A DNA stretch of 34,025 nt, from assembly GCA_022788345.1 (NCBI GenBank), contig JALFTM010000154.1, positions 1 to 34,025 on the forward strand. Direction: 5' to 3'. The notes beneath the pieces are model-generated. The model did not search any database, was not told the DNA's origin, and saw only the letters and a program-made list of their open reading frames with translations. Shown here piece after piece: positions 3,301 to 33,789 of this stretch. The position numbers and the translations under genes are program-made. The first letter of the stretch is position 1, and each line of letters starts with the position of its first letter. This DNA comes from Bacteroidales bacterium (GTDB taxonomy: Bacteria > Bacteroidota > Bacteroidia > Bacteroidales > Bacteroidaceae).

Positions 3301-4340
3301 CTGACGCGTAAAACCTCTCCCAAACGGCGAGATCGCGTACGCGAGCGATGGTCTTTCGGCAAGCGCAGCATCAGGTCTTGGGGCACAGGCACATTGCCGT
3401 AAATCAACGCCACATAATTCACTACCGCCCGTAAATAGTAGGGGTAGGCATGGATCAACTCCGTATCGCTCAAACGTTCCAAACGTCGCAACTGTGAGCG
3501 AGCTTCATGCGCTTCTCGCACCAGTTCTTCAGGCGCATCATATTCGTGAAAGAGATGCTCCATCTTCGGGAAGAGACCAGAAAAAAGAATGGTCGTATGA
3601 CGTAATCGCTCTTCGGTAGCACGTTGCAAGGTATCGTAAAGCACTTGGCAGCGTGCTCTTACATCCATTTCCGTAGCAACCATATCGCTCAAGGCGTGGA
3701 AGAAGTCGCCTGCCGTGGCAAGATAAGAGGTATAGTTTTCGAGAAGAACAGGCGGGTTGAGATATTCGTCCAACAAAAAGTTGTCGAGTTGTAGCCGTTT
3801 CTCTATACGGCACACATCTTCATCCGTAAAAGCCACTGGCGTCCCTTTCCATTGCTTCAAGCGCTCGACCAATGTGTCCATCGTTTCCACATCAAGCCAA
3901 GTATGTGTCTCTTTAGATAGGGCTTCCGTACAGAGTTTTACCTGCTGACTGAACACCCATGCGACACGCGCCTTTTGCACAGGCACAGCACTGCCGTGTT
4001 GTTCTTCTATCCAAAGTTTCACCTTTCGATGTAAAGCGCGCAACTGTGCCACTGGTGCACGCCCAAGACGCCCTCCTTTCAAGCTGCGCCCATCTACCAG
4101 CCATTCGCCCCTTTCTGCTCCAACAATCGCGCCTGTTTCATTGCTCCATACCAGTGCCATGACGCCCTTTTGACAAAGCAACAAAGCCCCAACCACAACG
4201 CCTTGAATGCGGTAGTTTCCCACCAGTAACGCTTCCTCCGTAGGAGGCAAAACACTGCGAAGCACTTGGATGGTTTGAGCAAAGGCTTCTTTTTCAAAGC
4301 TGTGGGCATAATTGCCGATGCGATAGCAACGAAGAGACAT
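348..4340 (-). CDS. Large DNA2/Upf1-like SF1 helicase fused to a Cas4-like PD-(D/E)XK nuclease domain
   Basis: 1330-aa ORF. Walker A GPPGTGKTS, Walker B-like LGIIDEASQL, GDHKQLPAVV, VERFQGSQRDIIIYGFT and LNVAMTRAKEHLVLIGD are SF1 helicase motifs. Upstream, GLMGRMDFLQLDKSVVVEQKSGKG followed by QLNLYRALL resembles a Cas4/Dna2 nuclease core. Confidence 0.88.
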   Translation of the reverse strand: MSLRCYRIGNYAHSFEKEAFAQTIQVLRSVLPPTEEALLVGNYRIQGVVVGALLLCQKGVMALVWSNETGAIVGAERGEWLVDGRSLKGGRLGRAPVAQLRALHRKVKLWIEEQHGSAVPVQKARVAWVFSQQVKLCTEALSKETHTWLDVETMDTLVERLKQWKGTPVAFTDEDVCRIEKRLQLDNFLLDEYLNPPVLLENYTSYLATAGDFFHALSDMVATEMDVRARCQVLYDTLQRATEERLRHTTILFSGLFPKMEHLFHEYDAPEELVREAHEARSQLRRLERLSDTELIHAYPYYLRAVVNYVALIYGNVPVPQDLMLRLPKDHRSRTRSRRLGEVLRVRVEHWNVNYIYAKAQDTGEVLKIDYVAMDDFSLGDGSYIKDLLTEGCQLNLIRPRLHEGEAEAIVYPELIIYEPDYLVNISSVAQCFEPYGALPYLQLIQRLVPFNGSMATVLGNFSGQLLDEALRHEDRSAQESFQDFFHTNALSLSTMELDSDKLEREGEEQWDNIHTGLTALKENGICDLEQVVLEPTFFSERLGLMGRMDFLQLDKSVVVEQKSGKGAYGSNPMRPLAQEPHFVQLNLYRALLHYGFNRPNKDIRTLFLYSKYGQPVVDKGHAPELLFESIKMRNQIVWCDYLYANEGFGLLEQLSPEDFRRKAVSDRFWQEWCEPKLLQVLQPVREASPLARAYCLRYLQFVQKELLHAKLGNAVKSDAGFATTWQASLDEKVKAGNIYYGLQLQFSAENAIVSQVHFSLPESEEMTASNFQRGDMVILYPYEEVPNACGEMVLRAIITEMTSEAMTLEFLYAQTSSRIFTYYAEKGFAWAVEHDFLESTFSALFRGLHALLTTDAERRNLLLCQRAPQVNETLEVQGSYGAFTDLVRRAKQARDCFLILGPPGTGKTSHGLLTLVKEELLEADASILLMAYTNRAVDEICEKLIEEGIDFLRLGKSSTTEVSKEFLFEHRVQMCATPEEAKALMANTRIFCATTATLNGNMAFFATKSFSLGIIDEASQLLEPQVMGILTAMNGDDVAVRRFVFIGDHKQLPAVVAQDVQSSIVTDPLLQEIGLTDCRRSLFERLYARWGTDERHCYMLTKQGRMHEQIAAFPNVMFYEGKLGVVPLPHQVQTLSPKREAQGVAAVFDRHRLAFIAPKTHQRSPNDKVNLVEAELIVAMVEAVWKKYQQEGKVFNASSSVGVIVPYRNQIAMIRKALSHREIAPELSNITIDTVERFQGSQRDIIIYGFTIGKAYQLNFLTANTFEENGYFIDRKLNVAMTRAKEHLVLIGDATLLEQDPIFAKLIQFVREQGAFYEIAPQDFLEGRI

Positions 4341-4773: not shown

Positions 4774-5547
4774 TCAATTCTGCAATGTTTCGAGCAGTTG
4801 AGCTACTGCTTGCTGTGGATTTTGAGTGCTGTGTAGCAACTCCACGAACTTGCTCCCTACCACTACACCTGAGAGATGTGCATCGGCCACGGAACGTGTG
4901 GCTTTGTTGGAGATGCCAAATCCCACCAAACAAGGCGTAGAGAGCTGGAGCGATGCAATGCGTGAGAAATAAGCCGCTCGTTTGTCGTCAAACGCTTGTT
5001 GTGCCCCCGTCACTGCCGCTGATGAAACAACGTAGATAAAGGCATTGCTCGCTGCATCTATTTGCCGAATGCGCTTCTCGGATGTCTCTGGCGTGATGAG
5101 GTAGATCATTTCTATCCCATAGCGTTCGGCCATAGGGCGATACCAACGTTCAAACTCTTCCAAAGGCAAGTCAGGAATGATGCAGGCATCAATGCCACAT
5201 TGCTGACACTGCGCAAAGAAACGCTCCACGCCATAACGCAACACTGAATTAAAATAGCCCATAATGACCAAAGGGATGTGAATGCGCTGGCGCACATCTT
5301 TGAGTTCCTCAAAGAGACGCACCAAAGTTGTACCACTTTTCAACGCGCGGGATGCCGCTGCTTGTATCACTACCCCATCGGCCACTGGATCGCTGTAAGG
5401 AATGCCTATCTCCACCATGTCTATCCCTCGCTCCTGCAAGGCTTCAAGTGTGGGAATAGTCAAAGAGAGGCTGGGATCGCCAGCACAAAAGTAAACGGAA
5501 AGGATGTCTTTGGATTTCTCTTGGAAGAGTTGGGAAATGCGATTCAT
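4774..5547 (-). CDS. trpA: Tryptophan synthase alpha chain
   Basis: MNRISQLFQEKSKDILSVYFCAGDPSLSLTIPTLEALQERGIDMVEIGIPYSDPVADG is typical TrpA. Last gene of the trp operon; ATGA overlap with trpF. Confidence 0.97.
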   Translation of the reverse strand: MNRISQLFQEKSKDILSVYFCAGDPSLSLTIPTLEALQERGIDMVEIGIPYSDPVADGVVIQAAASRALKSGTTLVRLFEELKDVRQRIHIPLVIMGYFNSVLRYGVERFFAQCQQCGIDACIIPDLPLEEFERWYRPMAERYGIEMIYLITPETSEKRIRQIDAASNAFIYVVSSAAVTGAQQAFDDKRAAYFSRIASLQLSTPCLVGFGISNKATRSVADAHLSGVVVGSKFVELLHSTQNPQQAVAQLLETLQN

Positions 5548-6146
5548 ATCAAACGAAATTGGGAAATGAATTGAGACAAAAGGCGGGCATCCTTGAGACC
5601 TGCCGACAGTTCAAAGCCACTGTTGAGATCTACGCCCTGCCATGAGGGATGAGAGAAATGTTGCAAGTCTGGGAGTGAGTTCAGGGACAATCCTCCTGAA
5701 AGTAAAAAAGGGACGGAGTGTGTGTAGCTTTGGAGCTGTTGCCAGTTGTAAGTCAAACCTGTTCCGCCATACTGCGGGCTGGGAGTATCGAAAAGAAAAT
5801 AATCTACGGCTGTGAGAAAAGGTAGAGTGGCGGTGTCCAAATCACCCATAGCAGGAATGGCCCGTATCACCTTTAATCCTTTTTCTCGCAAAGTGCAACA
5901 GAGCTGTGGCGAGGCTTTATAAAGCTGTACGCCCGTAAGTTGAAAGCTCCTCTGCCGAGCTTGAATGTCTTCCAAGGTGGCATCGACAAACACCCCAATA
6001 CGTTCTCCCGATGGCAAATGGTCGGGAGGAGTTGCTACATAACGAGGCGATTGGGGATGAAAGATGAAACCATACCAATCGGGCTTGGTGGCCTCAACAG
6101 CACGGATATTATCGCTTTGTCGCAGACCACAAACTTTAATAATCAT
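5544..6146 (-). CDS. trpF: Phosphoribosylanthranilate isomerase
   Basis: MIIKVCGLRQSDNIRAVEATKPDWYGFIFHPQSPRYV and LLSGGLSLNSL; position in the trp operon. Confidence 0.95.
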   Translation of the reverse strand: MIIKVCGLRQSDNIRAVEATKPDWYGFIFHPQSPRYVATPPDHLPSGERIGVFVDATLEDIQARQRSFQLTGVQLYKASPQLCCTLREKGLKVIRAIPAMGDLDTATLPFLTAVDYFLFDTPSPQYGGTGLTYNWQQLQSYTHSVPFLLSGGLSLNSLPDLQHFSHPSWQGVDLNSGFELSAGLKDARLLSQFISQFRLI

Positions 6147-6934
6147 AGCGTGGCAGTCATTTTTGCAATATAACGTTGCAAGGCTTCTCCCGGATCTGAC
6201 TCACGCATAAAAGCCTCACCGATGAGAAAACCGCGAAAGCCCACTTGGCGGAGATGTTGTGCTACGCAGGGATTGAGCAGTCCGCTCTCGCTCACGGGAA
6301 GGGCTTCTTTGGGGAGAAGGTCGAAGAGACGCACCGAACGCTCTGCATCGGTTTGGAAAGAATGTAGGTCACGATTGTTGATGCCAACCATATCTACTTC
6401 AGAACAATAGGCCGAAAGTTCTTCCGCTGTGTGTACCTCAAGCAAAACCTCAAGCCCTAAGCCTTTCGCCTCTCGTGCCAAATGTTGTAAGCGTTCGTTG
6501 GACAAAGCAGCAGCAATGAGCAGAATTGCATCTGCTCCCGTGGCACGGGCTTCGAGGAGTTGGTATTCATCTATAATAAATTCTTTGCGGAGCAAAGGCA
6601 GTTCTGTGAGGCTACGGGCACGACGTAGGAAGTCCAATGAGCCACCAAAAAACGCTTCGTCTGTGAGTACACTCAAGGCCGAGGCACCGCCAGCATCATA
6701 AGTAGGCACAATGGTTTCAGGTGTTGCATCTTGGAAAATCCAACCTTTGGAGGGCGATTTACGCTTGAACTCGGCAATGATACCAGAAGCAGAGTTGGCC
6801 AAACTCTTACGCATACTGCGCGGTGCAGGGGCATCAAGGAGTTGACGTTCCAACTCTTTGAGAGGCACCTTTTGACGCTGAAGAGCAACTTCTTGGGCCT
6901 TATGGGTAAGAATACGAGAAAGGATTGTGGACAT
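6143..6934 (-). CDS. trpC: Indole-3-glycerol-phosphate synthase
   Basis: IIAEFKRKSPSKGWI, ALSVLTDEAFFGGSLDFL, LLRKEFIIDEYQL, GINNRDLHSF. Start placed at MSTILSRILTHKAQEV (ATG 6934-6932), 8 bp after the trpD stop, rather than the longer ORF start at 7024. Confidence 0.95.
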   Translation of the reverse strand: MSTILSRILTHKAQEVALQRQKVPLKELERQLLDAPAPRSMRKSLANSASGIIAEFKRKSPSKGWIFQDATPETIVPTYDAGGASALSVLTDEAFFGGSLDFLRRARSLTELPLLRKEFIIDEYQLLEARATGADAILLIAAALSNERLQHLAREAKGLGLEVLLEVHTAEELSAYCSEVDMVGINNRDLHSFQTDAERSVRLFDLLPKEALPVSESGLLNPCVAQHLRQVGFRGFLIGEAFMRESDPGEALQRYIAKMTATL

Positions 6935-6942
6935 AATTGAAA

Positions 6943-7938
6943 TCATTGATTGATAGCAACAAATCGCTGAAAAGCTTGCAAGGCGCGACCACTTTCCAAT
7001 GCGTGGCGAGCAAGATCGAAACAAGCCGAGAGTGAGAGCGCTGGGCGGGCTACTTGAAGACCGAGTGCAGCATTGACAAGCACCACATTGCGTTGTGCCT
7101 CTGTTGCTGTGCCTTGCAACACCGCACTGAAAATCATGGCCGCCTCTTCTTTCGTTGTCCCACCATAGAGTTCGCTCTGCTCATAGAGTGGCAACCCCAA
7201 ATCTACAGGGCGATAGATATGTTCACTATGATTGGACATAACCTTGAAATCGGAGGTAAGAGAGATTTCGTCATAACCATCAACACTTGTCACCGTAGCA
7301 AACTGCACTCCAAGCTTTTGTAGTGCTATCGTATAAAGGCGCATTTGTGCCAAATCGGCCACACCCAAAAGCTGGAACGCAGGACGGGCTGGATTGACCA
7401 AAGGACCAAGAAGATTAAAGATGGTGCGCACCCCTATGGAGCGACGCAAAGGGGCAACGGTGGCCAAGGCTGGATGAAAAAGAGGGGCATGAAGATAGGC
7501 AAAGCCACTCTCCGCAACGCTACGACGGAGCTGTTCAACATCTGTTGTGAAACGTACGCCATGCGATTCGAGTACCGTACTGGCACCGCTCACAGACGAT
7601 GCTGCATGGTTGCCATGCTTTATCACAGGTTGGCCAGCACCAGCAATCACAAAGGCTGCACATGTAGAGATGTTGAACGTGTCCTTGCCATCGCCACCCG
7701 TTCCTACAATATCCAAAGCTTCTATGCCCGGAAAGTCGACTTTCACAGCCTGCTCCAATAAGGCTTCACGGAAACCCAAGAGTTCGTCTGCGGTGATGTC
7801 ACGCATCCGAAAAACAGTGAGCAAAGAAGCTACTTGGACTTCACTGAATTGTCCTGCCGTAATGGCTTGTAGGAGTTCTTTGGCTTCTTCCCGTCCAAGA
7901 TGCTCTTGGCGATAAAGCCGTTCGAGAAAGATTTTCAT
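6943..7938 (-). CDS. trpD: Anthranilate phosphoribosyltransferase
   Basis: DIVGTGGDGKDTFNISTCAAFVIAGAGQPVIKHGNHAASSVSGASTVLE; position in the trp operon. Confidence 0.97.
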   Translation of the reverse strand: MKIFLERLYRQEHLGREEAKELLQAITAGQFSEVQVASLLTVFRMRDITADELLGFREALLEQAVKVDFPGIEALDIVGTGGDGKDTFNISTCAAFVIAGAGQPVIKHGNHAASSVSGASTVLESHGVRFTTDVEQLRRSVAESGFAYLHAPLFHPALATVAPLRRSIGVRTIFNLLGPLVNPARPAFQLLGVADLAQMRLYTIALQKLGVQFATVTSVDGYDEISLTSDFKVMSNHSEHIYRPVDLGLPLYEQSELYGGTTKEEAAMIFSAVLQGTATEAQRNVVLVNAALGLQVARPALSLSACFDLARHALESGRALQAFQRFVAINQ

Positions 7939-7946
7939 AAGATAAG

Positions 7947-8516
7947 TTATGAAGCAGACACAAAGTTATGAATGATGGTGCGTCCTTCAGGCGTCAGCAC
8001 CGACTCAGGATGAAACTGAATGCCATGCACATCCAAAGTGCAGTGGCGCAAACCCATTATGAGACCTTCATCGCTCACACAAGTGATTTCCAAGTCGGTT
8101 GGGAAATCGGCCTTATCTACTACCCAAGAGTGGTAACGCCCAATTAAGAACGTGGTATCGAGACCATTATAAATATAATCGTCAGCAACAATGTGTGCTG
8201 GTGTTTGAACTCCGTGAAACACCTCACTGAGGTTCGTGAGTTTCGCACCGAAAACTTCGCCGATAGCTTGTTCACCCAAACAAACGCCTAAGATGGGTTT
8301 AGAAGGTGCATAAGTGCGAATTACATCATTGAGCAAGCCTGCTTCGCTCGGAATGCCCGGCCCCGGAGAGAGAACCAGTTTATCGTATATCTCCAAATCG
8401 GGCAGAGCAAATTGGTCGTTGCGCAACACATCTACCTTTGCCCCCTCTTCTTCCAAGAGCTGGCGTAAATTGTAGGTAAAAGAATCGTAGTTATCTATTA
8501 AAGCAATCTTTGTCAT
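7947..8516 (-). CDS. trpG: Anthranilate synthase glutamine amidotransferase component
   Basis: MTKIALIDNYDSFTYNLRQLLEEEG, LSPGPGIPSEAG, ILGVCLGEQAIGEVFG, HGIQFHPESVLTPEG. Start placed at the internal ATG 8516-8514. Confidence 0.96.
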   Translation of the reverse strand: MTKIALIDNYDSFTYNLRQLLEEEGAKVDVLRNDQFALPDLEIYDKLVLSPGPGIPSEAGLLNDVIRTYAPSKPILGVCLGEQAIGEVFGAKLTNLSEVFHGVQTPAHIVADDYIYNGLDTTFLIGRYHSWVVDKADFPTDLEITCVSDEGLIMGLRHCTLDVHGIQFHPESVLTPEGRTIIHNFVSAS

Positions 8517-8523
8517 TTCCTTT

Positions 8524-9951
8524 TCATCGTGAAGTGTGAACACTGTGACCATATTGTGCTTCAGTGGCAATAATGGCACGGCGCAGTGCATCCAACTTGT
8601 TGTTAACTTCCTGCAACTCGCTTTCTACATCGCTCTTTGCCACGATACCTGCACCAGCTTGAAACCAAAGTTCGCCATTGCGACTCACAAAACTGCGAAT
8701 AGTGATGGCTTGATTGAGTTCGCCATTCAGCCCTATAAATCCAATACAACCGCCATAAGCCCCTCGGTTATGTGGCTCGTACTCACTGATAAGTTCTAAC
8801 GCACGCACCTTGGGTGCACCACTCAACGTGCCAGCAGGAAAAGTATCTCCCAATAGTTGTATGGGATTGACACCTCTCTGTACCTTCCCGCTCACCCGGC
8901 TGACGAGGTGAACGACATGGCTATAAAATTGAATGTCTTTGTAGAAGTCTACCTGAACAGCCTCACAATTGCGGCTCAAATCGTTGCGGGCCAAATCGAC
9001 AAGCATCGTGTGCTCCGCATTCTCTTTCGGGTCGTTGTGGAGTGCTTCTGCAATCTCCTTGTCCCGACTGCGTTCGGCATGTCGGCGCATCGTGCCTGCA
9101 ATCGGGTCGATGTAAGCGCGCCCTTCTTCTATGCGACAATGGGTTTCGGGCGAAGAACCAAAGATGCGAAAGCCTCCAAAATCGAAATAGAAGAGATAAG
9201 GCGAAGGATTGATGCGCCGCAGTGTGCGATAGAGTTGGAAATCGTCGCCTTCATAGCGTTGTATAAAACGACGAGACAAAACAATTTGAAAAACATCTCC
9301 CCGCAAACAGTGCTGAATGCCTTTGCGTACCAAATGGCGATAGTCCTCGTCCGTTTGAGTAGAAGTTACAGCTCCCACAGCGCGGAAAGGATAGGCCGCC
9401 ATATGGTTCGTAGAGATGGCACGTTCTATTTCGCCCAAACGAAGCGTTTCGCCTGAGGCTTGCAGGCCTATAAGCAACAAATCGTTGTGGTAATCGTTGA
9501 AGACCAAGATGTACTTATAGAAGATGTACATAATGTCTGGCGCGTCGTTCTTGGCCTCTGTGCTGTCTTTGATGGCAACTTTCTCGAAATACCGAATGCC
9601 ATTAAAACCCATATAGCCATAAAGTCCAGCATAGCTACTATGCTCCCCTTTTACCTCAAACTGAGTTGTGAAGTAGGCAAAAGCATCTGCCACGGTGAAA
9701 GCTTCCGTAATTGGGCGCAACTCGGTGTGCCCATCAGGATAGATAAAACGCACTTCGTTGTGCGAGATGCTGATGGAAGCCATAGGCTCAAGACCTATGA
9801 AAGACCGGTTGTTCTCTCCGCTATGATAATCGGAGCTTTCCATCAGCGCACTCTGCGGGAACAGATCACGAATTTTAAGATACGTTCCCACAGGCGTTAT
9901 CAAGTCGCTTGGAATAGTGCGCGAGAGAGCAGTATATTTATAGACGTTCAT
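8524..9951 (-). CDS. trpE: Anthranilate synthase component I
   Basis: RGDVFQIVLSRRF, PSPYLFYFDFGGFRIFGSSPET, DPIAGTMRRH, AGTLSGAPKVRALELI, QAGAGIVAKSDVESE. Start placed at MNVYKYTALSRTIPSD (ATG 9951-9949), just after trpB. Confidence 0.95.
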   Translation of the reverse strand: MNVYKYTALSRTIPSDLITPVGTYLKIRDLFPQSALMESSDYHSGENNRSFIGLEPMASISISHNEVRFIYPDGHTELRPITEAFTVADAFAYFTTQFEVKGEHSSYAGLYGYMGFNGIRYFEKVAIKDSTEAKNDAPDIMYIFYKYILVFNDYHNDLLLIGLQASGETLRLGEIERAISTNHMAAYPFRAVGAVTSTQTDEDYRHLVRKGIQHCLRGDVFQIVLSRRFIQRYEGDDFQLYRTLRRINPSPYLFYFDFGGFRIFGSSPETHCRIEEGRAYIDPIAGTMRRHAERSRDKEIAEALHNDPKENAEHTMLVDLARNDLSRNCEAVQVDFYKDIQFYSHVVHLVSRVSGKVQRGVNPIQLLGDTFPAGTLSGAPKVRALELISEYEPHNRGAYGGCIGFIGLNGELNQAITIRSFVSRNGELWFQAGAGIVAKSDVESELQEVNNKLDALRRAIIATEAQYGHSVHTSR

Positions 9952-9955
9952 CGCT

Positions 9956-11161
9956 TTACTCTGAAAGATAGCCGAAACGAACAGCATGTTTGAGATAAGT
10001 GTCGATATCCTTGTCGCCACGGCCAGAGAGAGTCGCTACAACGATGTCGGTGGGCTGAAACTTCACTTTGCGAAGAGAAGCCAACGTGTGCGCAGACTCG
10101 ATAGCAGGCAAGATGCCTTCTTTTCTGTTTAAGTCGTAAGCCGCTTCAAGGGCTTCGTCATCCGTTACCGTTATGACGCTGGCACGACCGCTTTGTGCCA
10201 ATTCTGCATGCAGAGGACCAACACCGGGATAGTCGAGGCCTGCGGAAATAGAATAAGGCTCTATCACCTGCCCGTCTTCATCTTGCATCACCAACGAGCG
10301 ACTGCCATGGAGTACGCCTTCTGTGCCAAGGGTCAATGTGGCAGCTGTCTCTGCTGTATCTACGCCATGGCCTGATGCTTCTGCTATCACCAGTTTAACT
10401 TTTTCCTCATCCAAGAAATGGAAGAACGAGCCAGCCGCATTGCTACCGCCACCTACACAAGCTATGGCATAGTTGGGCAACTCTGTGCCTTCTTTCTCCA
10501 AAAGCTGTTGACGCACTTCTTCACTAATGATGGACTGCAAACGGGCCACCAAATCAGGATAAGGATGTGGACCCACTGCAGAGCCCAACAAATAGAATGT
10601 CTCCTCAGGATGCGAACACCAGTCGCGCAATGCTTCATTTACAGCATCCTTCAATGTCTGATTACCCGAAGTGGCTGGGATGACCTTTGCACCAAGCAGG
10701 CGCATCTTTTCCACATTGGGACGCTGACGTTCGATGTCCACTGCTCCCATATAAATGGTACATTCCATGCCGAAAAGGGCACAAACCGTTGCTGTGGCCA
10801 CGCCATGTTGTCCTGCACCTGTCTCTGCAATAATTCTACGCTTTCCCATGTGGCGTGCCAAAAGAATTTGTCCTATGGCATTATTGATTTTGTGCGCTCC
10901 TGTGTGGTTCAAATCTTCACGCTTAAGGTAGATTTTGCAACCGCAAAGCTCACTCAAAGATGGTGAGAGATAAAGTGGCGAAGGGCGGCCCACATAATCG
11001 CGCAACAAACTGCGAAATTCCGTTTGAAACGCTTCGCTTTCAATCACTTTAACATAGCACGCTGTCAAAGCATCGATGTTTGGTTTCAAAATTTCAGGAA
11101 CGAATGCACCACCGAATGTACCATAAAATCCATCTTCTGTAACGTGAAAATTCTTAGCCAT
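9956..11161 (-). CDS. trpB: Tryptophan synthase beta chain
   Basis: GTFGGAFVPEIL, RPSPLYLSPSLSELCGCKIYLKREDLNHTGAHKINNAIGQ, RIIAETGAGQHGVATAT, CVGGGSNAAGSFFHF. First structural gene of the operon. Confidence 0.97.
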   Translation of the reverse strand: MAKNFHVTEDGFYGTFGGAFVPEILKPNIDALTACYVKVIESEAFQTEFRSLLRDYVGRPSPLYLSPSLSELCGCKIYLKREDLNHTGAHKINNAIGQILLARHMGKRRIIAETGAGQHGVATATVCALFGMECTIYMGAVDIERQRPNVEKMRLLGAKVIPATSGNQTLKDAVNEALRDWCSHPEETFYLLGSAVGPHPYPDLVARLQSIISEEVRQQLLEKEGTELPNYAIACVGGGSNAAGSFFHFLDEEKVKLVIAEASGHGVDTAETAATLTLGTEGVLHGSRSLVMQDEDGQVIEPYSISAGLDYPGVGPLHAELAQSGRASVITVTDDEALEAAYDLNRKEGILPAIESAHTLASLRKVKFQPTDIVVATLSGRGDKDIDTYLKHAVRFGYLSE

Positions 11162-11193: not shown

Positions 11194-11230
11194 AAAAAAA
11201 AGCCAGTCTGTCGTAAGATGACAGACTGGC
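11194..11230 (-). terminator. Intrinsic terminator/attenuator in the trpB leader
   Basis: On the minus strand GCCAGTCTGTC-ATCTTAC-GACAGACTGGC (11-bp perfect stem, 7-nt loop, 11230-11202) is followed directly by T8 (11201-11194), 33 nt before the trpB start codon. Confidence 0.9.
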
Positions 11231-11272
11231 GAAAATTATTTTATCCTTCAGAATAAGGTGCGCAGAAGCCTC

Positions 11273-11335
11273 TTACGATTTTTTCAAGTCGTAAGTGCGC
11301 CACCAACCAAAAGCGTTCTGAAGAGAAATTGCCAT
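11273..11335 (-). CDS. trpL: Putative trp operon leader peptide, 20 aa: MAISLQNAFGWWRTYDLKKS
   Basis: ATG 11335-11333 to TAA 11275-11273. Tandem TGG TGG codons at 11305-11300. Lies between a consensus promoter and the terminator, immediately upstream of trpB. Below the supplied ORF size cutoff. Confidence 0.87.
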   Translation of the reverse strand: MAISLQNAFGWWRTYDLKKS

Positions 11336-11369
11336 AACTTATATTTGTTGTATATTCAATCTTTGATTG

Positions 11370-11401
11370 CAAAAGTAAGGAAGAAAATTGAATTAACCAA
11401 A
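11370..11401 (-). promoter_or_regulatory. Bacteroidetes-type promoter of the trp operon
   Basis: On the minus strand TTTG (11401-11398)-N20-TACTTTTG (11377-11370), matching the TTTG-N19-21-TAnnTTTG consensus. It lies about 35 nt upstream of the leader ATG. Confidence 0.8.
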
Positions 11402-11452: not shown

Positions 11453-12352
11453 TTACACCAAATGGCGAATCAACTCCTCACGGTCGCCGGGGAGAAGATC
11501 CAATACTGGAATTTCGGGCATGGTATAACAACCAGGACGCTGCAACATTGAAGCACGAGCAACAGCAACCAAAACTTGTGCTGTGAGGGCAGGATTGTTA
11601 ATTTTCATATTGAACTCAAAAAGCTGATTTTGGGTTACACCAGAAACACCTTTGCGCACCAAGTTAACGCCATGTCCCATGTCCAAAAGCGCATCCACGG
11701 AAGGCACTTCTGTCACATGTGTCTCATCATGCACGAAATAAAGGTCGGCTTTGATGGCAGCAGCCACCTTGTCAGAATCATACCCCTCCTTTACTTCTAT
11801 ATATACCATGCGGCGGTGAATGCCCTCGCCTGTTGGGATGGTCATTGAAAGGGCTGCTTTCACACCATCAATGGCTTTCACGGCCACGGTGTGTCCCATG
11901 CTCATACCCGGACCGAAGTTGGTGAAGCTAATGCCCTTGGGCGCAAGGGCTTCTAAGAGGGTGCGCACCACAGAATCGCTTCCCGGATCCCAGCCCGCAG
12001 AGATAATAGCCACAGCCCCTGAAGCCTTTGCGGCTTCGCCCAATGAACGGCGCAAATCAACAATGCCTGTGTGGATGTCGTAGCTATCCACTGTGTTGAT
12101 GCCTAAAGCTAAAATATCTTTTGCAAAAGCTTCTACGCTACGCGTGGGTGTTGCCAAAATGGCAACATCCACGTCTTTCAGCTCACGGATGTCACTCACC
12201 ACTTCATAGGCAGCCAGTTCCACTGGCTTGTCTTGTGCACCATTGCGACGCACCACGCCTGCAATTTCAAAATCGGGGGCAGCCTCAAGGGCTTCGATAG
12301 AATACTTGCCGATATTGCCGTAACCTACCACGGCAGCTCTAATCTTTTTCAT
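11453..12352 (-). CDS. ddh: meso-diaminopimelate D-dehydrogenase
   Basis: MKKIRAAVVGYGNIGKYSIEALEAAPDFEIAGVVRR (Rossmann N-terminus), SAGWDPGSDSVVRTLLEALAPKGISFTNFGPGMSMGHTVAVKAI. Start placed at ATG 12352-12350. Confidence 0.92.
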   Translation of the reverse strand: MKKIRAAVVGYGNIGKYSIEALEAAPDFEIAGVVRRNGAQDKPVELAAYEVVSDIRELKDVDVAILATPTRSVEAFAKDILALGINTVDSYDIHTGIVDLRRSLGEAAKASGAVAIISAGWDPGSDSVVRTLLEALAPKGISFTNFGPGMSMGHTVAVKAIDGVKAALSMTIPTGEGIHRRMVYIEVKEGYDSDKVAAAIKADLYFVHDETHVTEVPSVDALLDMGHGVNLVRKGVSGVTQNQLFEFNMKINNPALTAQVLVAVARASMLQRPGCYTMPEIPVLDLLPGDREELIRHLV

Positions 12353-12477
12353 TTTATTTTTATTTACTTTTTGTCTTGCAAAGATAGTCATAAAGTAACA
12401 TTTCACTAACAGACTATCACTTTTGTATCCAATTCTTCCAAACGCTATTCAGTGCTTTAAGCAGATACACACTGCTC

Positions 12478-16304: not shown

Positions 16305-18860
16305 TTAGAACTTGTATCGTAAGCCGAAGAGCACTTCTCGCCCACGCAAAGGCAAGGCGTAATAAGTAAAGTTCGCACCATTGTAGCGTACTTCTTCATA
16401 AGTCTTGCGATGAAGCAAATTAGAAGCTCTAAAGTCGACTGTCAGGCGACCATTAAGAGTATATTCCGCACCTAAATTAACAAAACAATTGGTGGCATAA
16501 TGTCCATGGGTCAATTCTTGAGTAGACTGTGAGAAAGTAAAATTGCATTGCATGCGCTCCAAAGGATAGGCACGGAGGATCAACTGATAATAGACGTTCT
16601 TTAGCACATTGTGCGTGCTGGAAAAAACATCTATATCCTTCCACGAGAGATTACCCTCGGCTGTCAAATCGGCTGTCAACCACTTAAGTTTCGCCCACTG
16701 CAACGTCCAACTCATATTCCAAGCGTTATAATGTATATCTCCCCTCAGATTATTTTGCGAAACAAATCGTTTGCTGCGTGCGAAGCTATTGCGCTGACTT
16801 AGTGTTAAGCCACTCTTTCGGTTCACTTTCTGAAACGAGAGTTGGAACGAAAGTGTGGTGCGTCTACTATCTTCCCAAACAGGCGTTGCATAAGTGGTGT
16901 TCGGAGAATAATAGGCAGAGAAATAGCTATCGCACTTCGTATGCGACCAGCTGGCATAGAAGTTCCAAGAAAACATATTGGCCAAGTTGATAAACGACCA
17001 ACGCATACTGCCCATCGTGGTTCGGCTCACAGAAAGACTGTCAAGACTCTGATAAAAGACACGATAAGTTTGGCGCAAAAGAGTGGGTATGAGTAGGTCG
17101 GAAGTATTGCCAGCTTTGTTGTGACTGAAAGTAAAGAGGGAATGAACATTGACATTCCAGTTTTTACTCCAAGAGAGTTCGGGCGACCATAGAAAGCAAC
17201 GATTGCTCTGCGGGCGGTAGTTATAATGATAAGACAAATAGGCAACGGGAACGGCTATGCTCATGGTGCCACCGCCAAGTGGCATATCTGCTGAGAAGTC
17301 AAGGCTTTGTTGCCAATAACGGCTTTTATAATTTACACCGCCCATTATCGGCATGAGATGCGTATTCTTGAATTTCAATCCATAAGCTGTATGCATTATC
17401 ATGCGCCCGATGCTCCAGTCCGTACCGATGGAATGTGCCATAAAGAAGTTGCGTTTACGCAGGTACTGCGCAAAGGTGCTGTTCAGATAGAGTTGTTCCG
17501 TTTCACTCACCCAACGCACATTGGACGAAACATCATAGGCCATATTGCCAACATTGAGAGTAGCGCGCAGAATGTTACTCAGCGTAAAAGGACTTGTCTG
17601 CATGCTTTCGTGAAGCCTTCCTTGGTGGGTATAAGATAAATTCTCATATCGTTCCCATTCTCCTGTTCCTGACATTACCTCTTGCAAATAGACCTTAGGA
17701 GAATTATTGACAAAGGCTATACTTCCTGCGAGGGAATGAACACGTTGCAAGGAGGCAGTGCGTTGAAAATAGCTAACTGTGTCTGCACCTATTGCATAAT
17801 GATAGTACGCACTGTCATCCTGAACGACACGCCCATGCTGATAGGTCATATTAGCACGCAAGCTTTTTTCATGGGAATAGCCACGTAAATAATTGAGCGA
17901 AGCAAGGTGCGAGTGATTGTTCCAATAATAGCTTGTTGCCAAGGGAGGACGCATCGGCGAGGAAACAGACAACATGCGTTGTGGAAGCGGTTCGCTTTCG
18001 GTGTCCAAAGCTGTACCTAAACCCTGCGAGAGGGTGCGCAGATTACGCCCCGTATTGTTCATCGCTCCCATCGCCAAAAGCTGATGTTTCTTTCCGAAGA
18101 AAAAAGTGGTCAAATTGTTGTCCCATAAAAAAGGACTTGCCCCTCCGTGCAAACCAATTTCGCCAAAAGGACGCAACCGGTAGTTCTCTTTGAGTTTGAT
18201 ATTGAGTGTGGCACGATCGCTCCTCTGCTTGCCTTCCAAAGCGCGAATGGGCTGATTACGTTCCATTACTTGAATTTGCGAAACAGCTTCGGCAGGCATC
18301 GTTTCTGTGGCTAAGTTGTAGCGACTACCCATCATGTTTTGCCCTTCAATGTTGACATGATTGATAGGGACACCTTGGTAATGGATTTCGCCCGAAGGTT
18401 TCACTTCTATGCCGGGCATACGCTTGAGCACATCGCTAATAGTGCGATCACTCTTTTCTCGAAAGGCATCAACACGATAATTAAGCGTATCGCTGTTCCG
18501 AGAGATGGGCGTGGCAGTAACAACCACTTCATGGATGTTCTTAGCGTTACGATGGAGCGTTATTTCATAGTGTGAAATGTTGGTTTGCAAATTGAATTTG
18601 TGCGTCTCATACCCCCAAAGCGCAATTTCTATACATTTCGCTCCGTCCTTTTGCACAAGCTCGTAGCGACCATCGCCCTTGGTTTGCGCAAAACTTAAAA
18701 GTGAGTCCTGCGCATTAAGCAAGCGACACATAGCACTCACAATGGGACGACCATCCACGGTGCGCACAACGCCCGTGATTTTGCGTTCTGGGTTCTGCGC
18801 ACTCAAAATGCACGTTGCTACTATGAACAGATATAATATGCCAACAATTCTCCTCACCAT
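16305..18860 (-). CDS. TonB-dependent receptor-like outer-membrane beta-barrel protein with N-terminal carboxypeptidase-regulatory-like domain
   Basis: Signal peptide MVRRIVGILYLFIVATCILSAQ; ITGVVRTVDGRPIVSAMCRLL; plug-like ISDVLKRMPGIEVKPSGEIHYQGVPINHVNIEGQNMMG; beta-barrel-like remainder ending RGREVLFGLRYKF. Confidence 0.88.
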   Translation of the reverse strand: MVRRIVGILYLFIVATCILSAQNPERKITGVVRTVDGRPIVSAMCRLLNAQDSLLSFAQTKGDGRYELVQKDGAKCIEIALWGYETHKFNLQTNISHYEITLHRNAKNIHEVVVTATPISRNSDTLNYRVDAFREKSDRTISDVLKRMPGIEVKPSGEIHYQGVPINHVNIEGQNMMGSRYNLATETMPAEAVSQIQVMERNQPIRALEGKQRSDRATLNIKLKENYRLRPFGEIGLHGGASPFLWDNNLTTFFFGKKHQLLAMGAMNNTGRNLRTLSQGLGTALDTESEPLPQRMLSVSSPMRPPLATSYYWNNHSHLASLNYLRGYSHEKSLRANMTYQHGRVVQDDSAYYHYAIGADTVSYFQRTASLQRVHSLAGSIAFVNNSPKVYLQEVMSGTGEWERYENLSYTHQGRLHESMQTSPFTLSNILRATLNVGNMAYDVSSNVRWVSETEQLYLNSTFAQYLRKRNFFMAHSIGTDWSIGRMIMHTAYGLKFKNTHLMPIMGGVNYKSRYWQQSLDFSADMPLGGGTMSIAVPVAYLSYHYNYRPQSNRCFLWSPELSWSKNWNVNVHSLFTFSHNKAGNTSDLLIPTLLRQTYRVFYQSLDSLSVSRTTMGSMRWSFINLANMFSWNFYASWSHTKCDSYFSAYYSPNTTYATPVWEDSRRTTLSFQLSFQKVNRKSGLTLSQRNSFARSKRFVSQNNLRGDIHYNAWNMSWTLQWAKLKWLTADLTAEGNLSWKDIDVFSSTHNVLKNVYYQLILRAYPLERMQCNFTFSQSTQELTHGHYATNCFVNLGAEYTLNGRLTVDFRASNLLHRKTYEEVRYNGANFTYYALPLRGREVLFGLRYKF

Positions 18861-33581: not shown

Positions 33582-33686
33582 TATTCTGTCTGCTTTTTAG
33601 TTCGCACCTCTAAAATACGAATTTTGGAGCTTACACACTTTTTGTGACACTACCCACTACCTTATTCTCAACCACTAAGTATCTAC

Positions 33687-33725
33687 AAAAGAAGTGTTGA
33701 ACTCTTATAGTTCAACACTTCTTTT
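33687..33725. terminator. Intrinsic terminator, potentially bidirectional
   Basis: AAAAGAAGTGTTGAACT-CTTAT-AGTTCAACACTTCTTTT, a 17-bp perfect stem with A/T-rich ends. Confidence 0.75.
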
Positions 33726-33789
33726 ATAAATAGTGAGTAAAACACACGCATAATTCAAGCCCGTACATCCGAAACAAACTATCTAAAAG

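Follow-up and report, generated by a model that had tools for sequence, protein, structure and literature searches.

One of the questions raised by this locus is how a complete tryptophan operon in a member of the Bacteroidales is switched, and whether the leader in front of it belongs to a kind of attenuator that is already described. We analyzed the whole stretch of 34,025 nucleotides, here called the window, in which a leader-peptide attenuator resembling that of Escherichia coli had been predicted upstream of trpB from the letters alone. Our reading is that the element is very probably a ribosome-mediated attenuator of trpBEGDCFA that senses charged tRNA-Trp, and that it belongs, as a divergent copy, to the Bacteroid-trp leader family. 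We infer the stalling, the kinetic switch and the tryptophan response from the sequence parts, their conservation, their covariation and their positions.

Parts of the element and its gene context

All parts lie on the minus strand in the order that the original prediction gave (promoter, leader ORF, terminator with its T8 tract, trpB), and its coordinates proved exact to the base for every element of the attenuator.

11370..11401, minus strand, promoter of the Bacteroidetes type, TTTG-N20-TACTTTTG (TAnnTTTG), from sequence and conservation in related loci
11401-11398, minus strand, TTTG box of the promoter, followed by N20
11377-11370, minus strand, TACTTTTG box of the promoter, from sequence
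11273..11335, minus strand, leader peptide ORF MAISLQNAFGWWRTYDLKKS of 20 codons, with ATG at 11335 and TAA at 11275-11273
11300..11305, minus strand, tandem Trp codons TGGTGG (codons 11-12 of the leader), presumed ribosome stall site
11289..11295, minus strand, segment 1, CTTACGA, partner of segment 2, from sequence and covariation
11271..11278, minus strand, segment 2, TCGTAAGA, over the leader stop codon, partner of segment 1 or segment 3
11202..11230, minus strand, intrinsic terminator hairpin of 11 bp with a 7-nt loop, -19.8 kcal/mol, from folding
11230-11220, minus strand, terminator 5' arm
11219-11213, minus strand, terminator loop
11212-11202, minus strand, terminator 3' arm
11211..11218, minus strand, segment 3, TCTTACGA, the terminator loop and the first 2 nt of the 3' arm
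11194..11201, minus strand, T8 tract of the terminator, from sequence

The operon behind the attenuator is a complete trpBEGDCFA, and the gene upstream of the attenuator is read from the same strand.

11453-12406, minus strand, diaminopimelate dehydrogenase gene, upstream of the attenuator
9956..11161, minus strand, trpB (TIGR00263), first gene of the operon, with ATG at 11161
8524..10020, minus strand, trpE, an ORF taken from the first possible start; the true start is probably further in
7947..8591, minus strand, trpG
6943..7938, minus strand, trpD (TIGR01245)
6143..7024, minus strand, trpC
5544..6146, minus strand, trpF
4774..5547, minus strand, trpA (TIGR00262), last trp gene

Elsewhere in the window, at 16305-18860 on the minus strand, an 851-aa ORF without a Pfam match is the neighbour of a Porph_ging-like protein.

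Dinucleotide shuffling of the 291-nt intergenic region, repeated 3000 times, produced a WW ORF 6 times and a terminator at least as stable as -18 kcal/mol twice, and the two never appeared together. The folding of the window leader stands at z = -4.9 relative to its shuffles, and its 8-bp duplex between segments 2 and 3 (2:3) had no equal among 200 shuffles.

Conservation upstream of trpB

Loci for comparison were gathered by their trpB, blind to the leader, and came from 61 close genomes and 294 of the order, from the window's genus and from named genomes; a leader was called where a WW or WRW ORF preceded a terminator with a folding energy below -11 kcal/mol. Such a leader and terminator lie upstream of trpB in 63 loci, and in 0 of 23 trpB loci from other phyla. 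Bacteroides cellulosilyticus (MLINTYWWWRPLQLRQS) and Proteiniphilum acetatigenes (MNNSLLNGYWWRYLQLSKS) carry such leaders, and so does Alloprevotella sp. Lung230, whose leader peptide is identical in a genome of the window's genus (L059 and L164), which makes Alloprevotella the probable source of the window. A TAnnTTTG promoter is found less than 90 nt from the leader start in 54 of the 63 loci, against 4.6% in shuffled regions. In one locus (L004) about 300 nt separate the terminator from trpB, and the insertion between attenuator and trpB has inverted ends (GGGGTGTTCTA...TAGAACACCCC) and is apparently a small mobile element.

These loci bear directly on a simpler explanation, by which the hairpin is the mere terminator of the diaminopimelate dehydrogenase gene and the WW ORF is accidental. 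The gene does lie upstream on the strand of the attenuator, yet the other 62 loci keep leader and terminator and give no tblastn match to it; moreover, a promoter stands between this gene and the terminator, and the loop-borne segment 3 shows covariation with the leader. The element is conserved independently of the diaminopimelate dehydrogenase gene, and we reject this explanation as extremely unlikely.

The comparison of trpB upstream regions that the original prediction had called for shows that the tandem Trp codons and the pairing segments of the attenuator are kept across the Bacteroidales. In our alignment A2 (69 leaders, MAFFT) the Trp-codon columns 13-18 are nearly invariant, and the surroundings of WW vary freely (YWWR, FWWW, AWWR, FWWL and others). 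Leaders of the window's genus vary as well, with YWRW in L005 and a single Trp codon in L006 and L157/L158.

Segment 2 starts 25-28 nt (about 26) past the first Trp codon in most loci, in any reading frame. Its core, [CT]GTRAG, coincides with the stop-codon region in 33 of the 63 leaders; 15 leaders read it in one of the other two frames, 4 have it beyond the stop and 11 lack it. Because it is read as a stop, in other frames or past the stop, segment 2 is, judged by this comparison, conserved as RNA and not as peptide. The conserved quantity, on the same grounds, is its spacing from the Trp codons and not the stop-codon overlap, which had been named among the features whose conservation would lend support; the overlap is present in the window and common in relatives but is not general.

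Alternative pairings and the proposed switch

Three mutually exclusive pairing segments had been proposed for the window. The pairings are present, and segment 2 covaries with segments 1 and 3; segment 3 was also rightly placed in the loop and the start of the 3' arm, where it is limited to the loop and 2 nt of the arm. In alignment A2 the 2:3 antiterminator is paired in 88.4% of cells and its covariation is 0.271, against 0.221 in shuffled and at most 0.10 in slid controls; when the window's genus is left out, the value is 0.297 against 0.234 shuffled. The hairpin of segments 1 and 2 (1:2) together with the terminator is 90.9% paired, with a covariation of 0.468 against 0.221 shuffled. At the strongest covarying site an A/G of segment 2 meets a T/C of segment 3 in 60 of 69 leaders (A-T in 22, G-C in 38), and segment 1 follows with T/C. 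Because the relatedness of the sequences inflates the shuffle tests, it is the slid controls and the wholesale replacement of segments that carry weight. Both 2:3 segments are swapped together in L005 (TTCGCTTG with CAAGCGAA), L054 (GACGTTGT with ACAACGTC) and, as read from the sequence, L006 (CGCTTG with CAAGCG) and L175 (GTTGTAA with TTACAAC).

Folding of the growing transcript gives the same alternatives. When the stretch that a stalled ribosome would cover is masked, the lowest-energy fold is the 8-bp 2:3 duplex throughout synthesis of the loop and beyond, until the terminator lacks only about 4 nt; no terminator appears before about 9 nt of its 3' arm have been transcribed. Without a mask, segment 2 is held in 1:2, and 2:3 is absent at every length; a ribosome placed at the stop codon hides segment 2, and the terminator then forms. 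The full-length terminator state with the ribosome stalled has -26.3 kcal/mol and the 2:3 state of a slightly shorter transcript -16.7, and since the full-length terminator is more stable even with a stalled ribosome, the switch would have to be kinetic.

Given the usual dimensions of the ribosome, segment 1 lies under a ribosome stalled at either Trp codon and segment 2 stays accessible; segment 2 in turn lies under a ribosome at the stop codon. When tryptophan suffices, the ribosome would reach the stop codon and cover segment 2, or would already have released and left the 1:2 hairpin; with segment 2 covered or held in this way, the terminator would form and transcription would end before trpB. 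Uncharged tRNA-Trp would make the ribosome stall at codons 11-12, over segment 1, and the freed segment 2 would pair with the newly transcribed segment 3, made up of the terminator loop and the 3' arm apex. The 2:3 pairing would then block the loop-closing pairs needed for zipping of the terminator, and RNA polymerase would continue into trpB. Since segment 3 consists of the loop and the first nucleotides of the 3' arm, a block of terminator nucleation is the likely effect, although a partial terminator could in principle form beside 2:3 in the window, where 2:3 takes just 2 nt of the 3' arm.

This short overlap is also the starting point for another possible option, namely that the Trp leader is real and the antiterminator is something other than 2:3, either another pairing (e.g., with the terminator 5' arm) or pausing of ribosome or RNA polymerase alone. 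It would suit the several relatives that lack a clear 2:3 duplex (e.g., L004, L011, L045, and L057). However, in most relatives 2:3 takes 3-5 nt of the 3' arm, its covariation exceeds both shuffled and slid controls, and four loci have its segments completely replaced, so that we consider this option rather improbable. The 2:3 pairing is, in our preferred reading, a testable antiterminator, and with it the region has three features of an attenuator: a small leader ORF, with its tandem Trp codons, in front of a trp operon, a conserved intrinsic terminator before the first structural gene and, by sequence and folding, an alternative antiterminator that a stalled ribosome would favour.

Relation to known leaders

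Rfam holds the family RF01692, Bacteroid-trp, described as 'Bacteroidete tryptophan peptide leader RNA' (Weinberg et al., 2010; PMC2864571). The original prediction had noted that leader-peptide attenuation is best characterised in Proteobacteria and that its use here deserved a check; this use is not a new finding, since RF01692 already describes tryptophan peptide leaders of Bacteroidetes. A direct scan with RF01692 leaves the window below the gathering cut-off (49 bits), with no match even at E 10, and membership was therefore assessed with our own covariance models. The cut-off is passed by the orthologous leaders L057, L040, L137, L041, L136, L061, L010, and L013, which sit at the same place before trpB, and the orthologous leaders that RF01692 matches include that of Bacteroides cellulosilyticus. 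Model R2, whose 43 leaders all come from other genera and include RF01692-positive loci, detects the window element with 40.4 bits (E 1.4e-6), and this match relates the element to others at the orthologous place that pass the Rfam cut-off. Because orthologues are RF01692-positive, because all 27 RF01692 matches in the 294 Bacteroidales genomes coincide with matches of our model R1, and because R2 finds the window, the element is, on sequence relationship, a divergent member of the known Bacteroid-trp family, and a tryptophan attenuator of this sort is not new in kind.

RF01692 and the window element share a leader ORF with Trp codons, a leader hairpin, a terminator and a position before the trp genes of Bacteroidetes; however, the Rfam model reaches only into the terminator 5' arm and includes neither the full terminator nor an antiterminator. 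A study of Flavobacterium psychrophilum discusses Bacteroid-trp as a tryptophan peptide leader (PMC6414381), and another reports strong indications that amino-acid operons of this species are attenuated through leader peptides (PMC9723704). This species resembles the window in phylum, in the class of operons and in having Bacteroid-trp upstream of trp, but it belongs to another order of the class, and no antiterminator or covariation is given for Bacteroid-trp in the passages of the two papers that were consulted. Among the open-access papers searched no experimental study of the element in Bacteroides was found, which is weak evidence given this scope.

The E. coli trp attenuator (RF00513) works alike in outline, by the 1:2 / 2:3 / terminator logic, and its segment 3 is the terminator 5' arm. 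The window shares the tandem Trp codons, this logic and the GWWRT core, and differs in its first operon gene (trpB, and trpE in E. coli) and in segment 3, which is the loop and the 3' arm apex; hence the two antiterminators differ somewhat in construction. The E. coli-type logic of the original prediction is supported by covariation and folding.

Shared ancestry with the enterobacterial trpL attenuator could be proposed from the identical GWWRT and from the RF00513 score of the window (20.7 bits, E 0.07, at 11194-11311). Yet this score is well under the 41-bit cut-off, the antiterminator uses another segment of the terminator and leaves out its 5' arm, and the residues flanking WW change freely among relatives, so that GWWRT, though indeed identical to the core of E. 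coli TrpL, is merely one variant among many. Common descent is on these grounds very unlikely, and membership in Bacteroid-trp is the reading that we retain.

Distribution, tandem copies and a possible regulon

R1 matches 106 of the 294 Bacteroidales genomes and RF01692 27 (about four times fewer); in the phylum R1 matches 44 of 297 genomes, mostly of one other family of the class. Not all R1 matches under about 41 bits are real, since four of them (L173, L177, L184, and L185; 35-41 bits) turned out to be terminators behind ordinary reading frames. The window's own genome has a single R1 match. A second R2 match at 33619-33729 (17.1 bits, E 0.05) has no Trp leader in its sequence and is put down to chance. 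Peptide-leader control of tryptophan synthesis would on these counts be common in Bacteroidales, far beyond the reach of the Rfam model. Attenuation requires a ribosome close behind RNA polymerase, and ribosome recruitment in Bacteroidota differs from that in Proteobacteria; the requirement makes the element a ready probe of transcription-translation coupling in Bacteroidota.

In some genomes two complete WW/WWW leader-terminator units lie about 140 nt apart before trpE or trpB; attenuators in series would steepen control. Others stand directly before trpB2 (TrpB-like) genes.

L167 3148-3406, L168 3422-3666, and L169 444-689, tandem attenuators before trpE
L170 2732-2977 and L171 351-595, tandem attenuators before trpB
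L174 1996-2113, L175 1632-1739, L176 350-448, L179 3504-3608, and L181 3338-3456, Trp attenuators directly before trpB2

The names trpB2 and cysK rest on resemblance judged by eye, except for the L175 gene, which has a 33% match to trpB. That attenuators of the same family directly precede trpB2 suggests a small tryptophan regulon. A wider reading can be drawn from here, to which we give somewhat less than even weight: that the Bacteroidia have a distinct geometry, in which segment 2 imitates the top of the 5' arm, captures the loop and the 3' arm apex and blocks nucleation, together with a regulon that extends beyond the trp operon to tandem attenuators, trpB2 copies and perhaps a cysteine-coded relative before cysK.

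Of 30 cysK loci fetched, about 15 could be parsed, and a cysteine attenuator was seen before cysK in 0 of these. In L174, at 3967-4080 on the minus strand, a leader with CCWCC (MKISAYISINCCWCCENTSKCKQFVNM) lies just before a cysK-like gene, and its segment 2 (TGTAAGCAA) matches the terminator loop (TTGTTTACA); this element is a possible cysteine-responsive relative.
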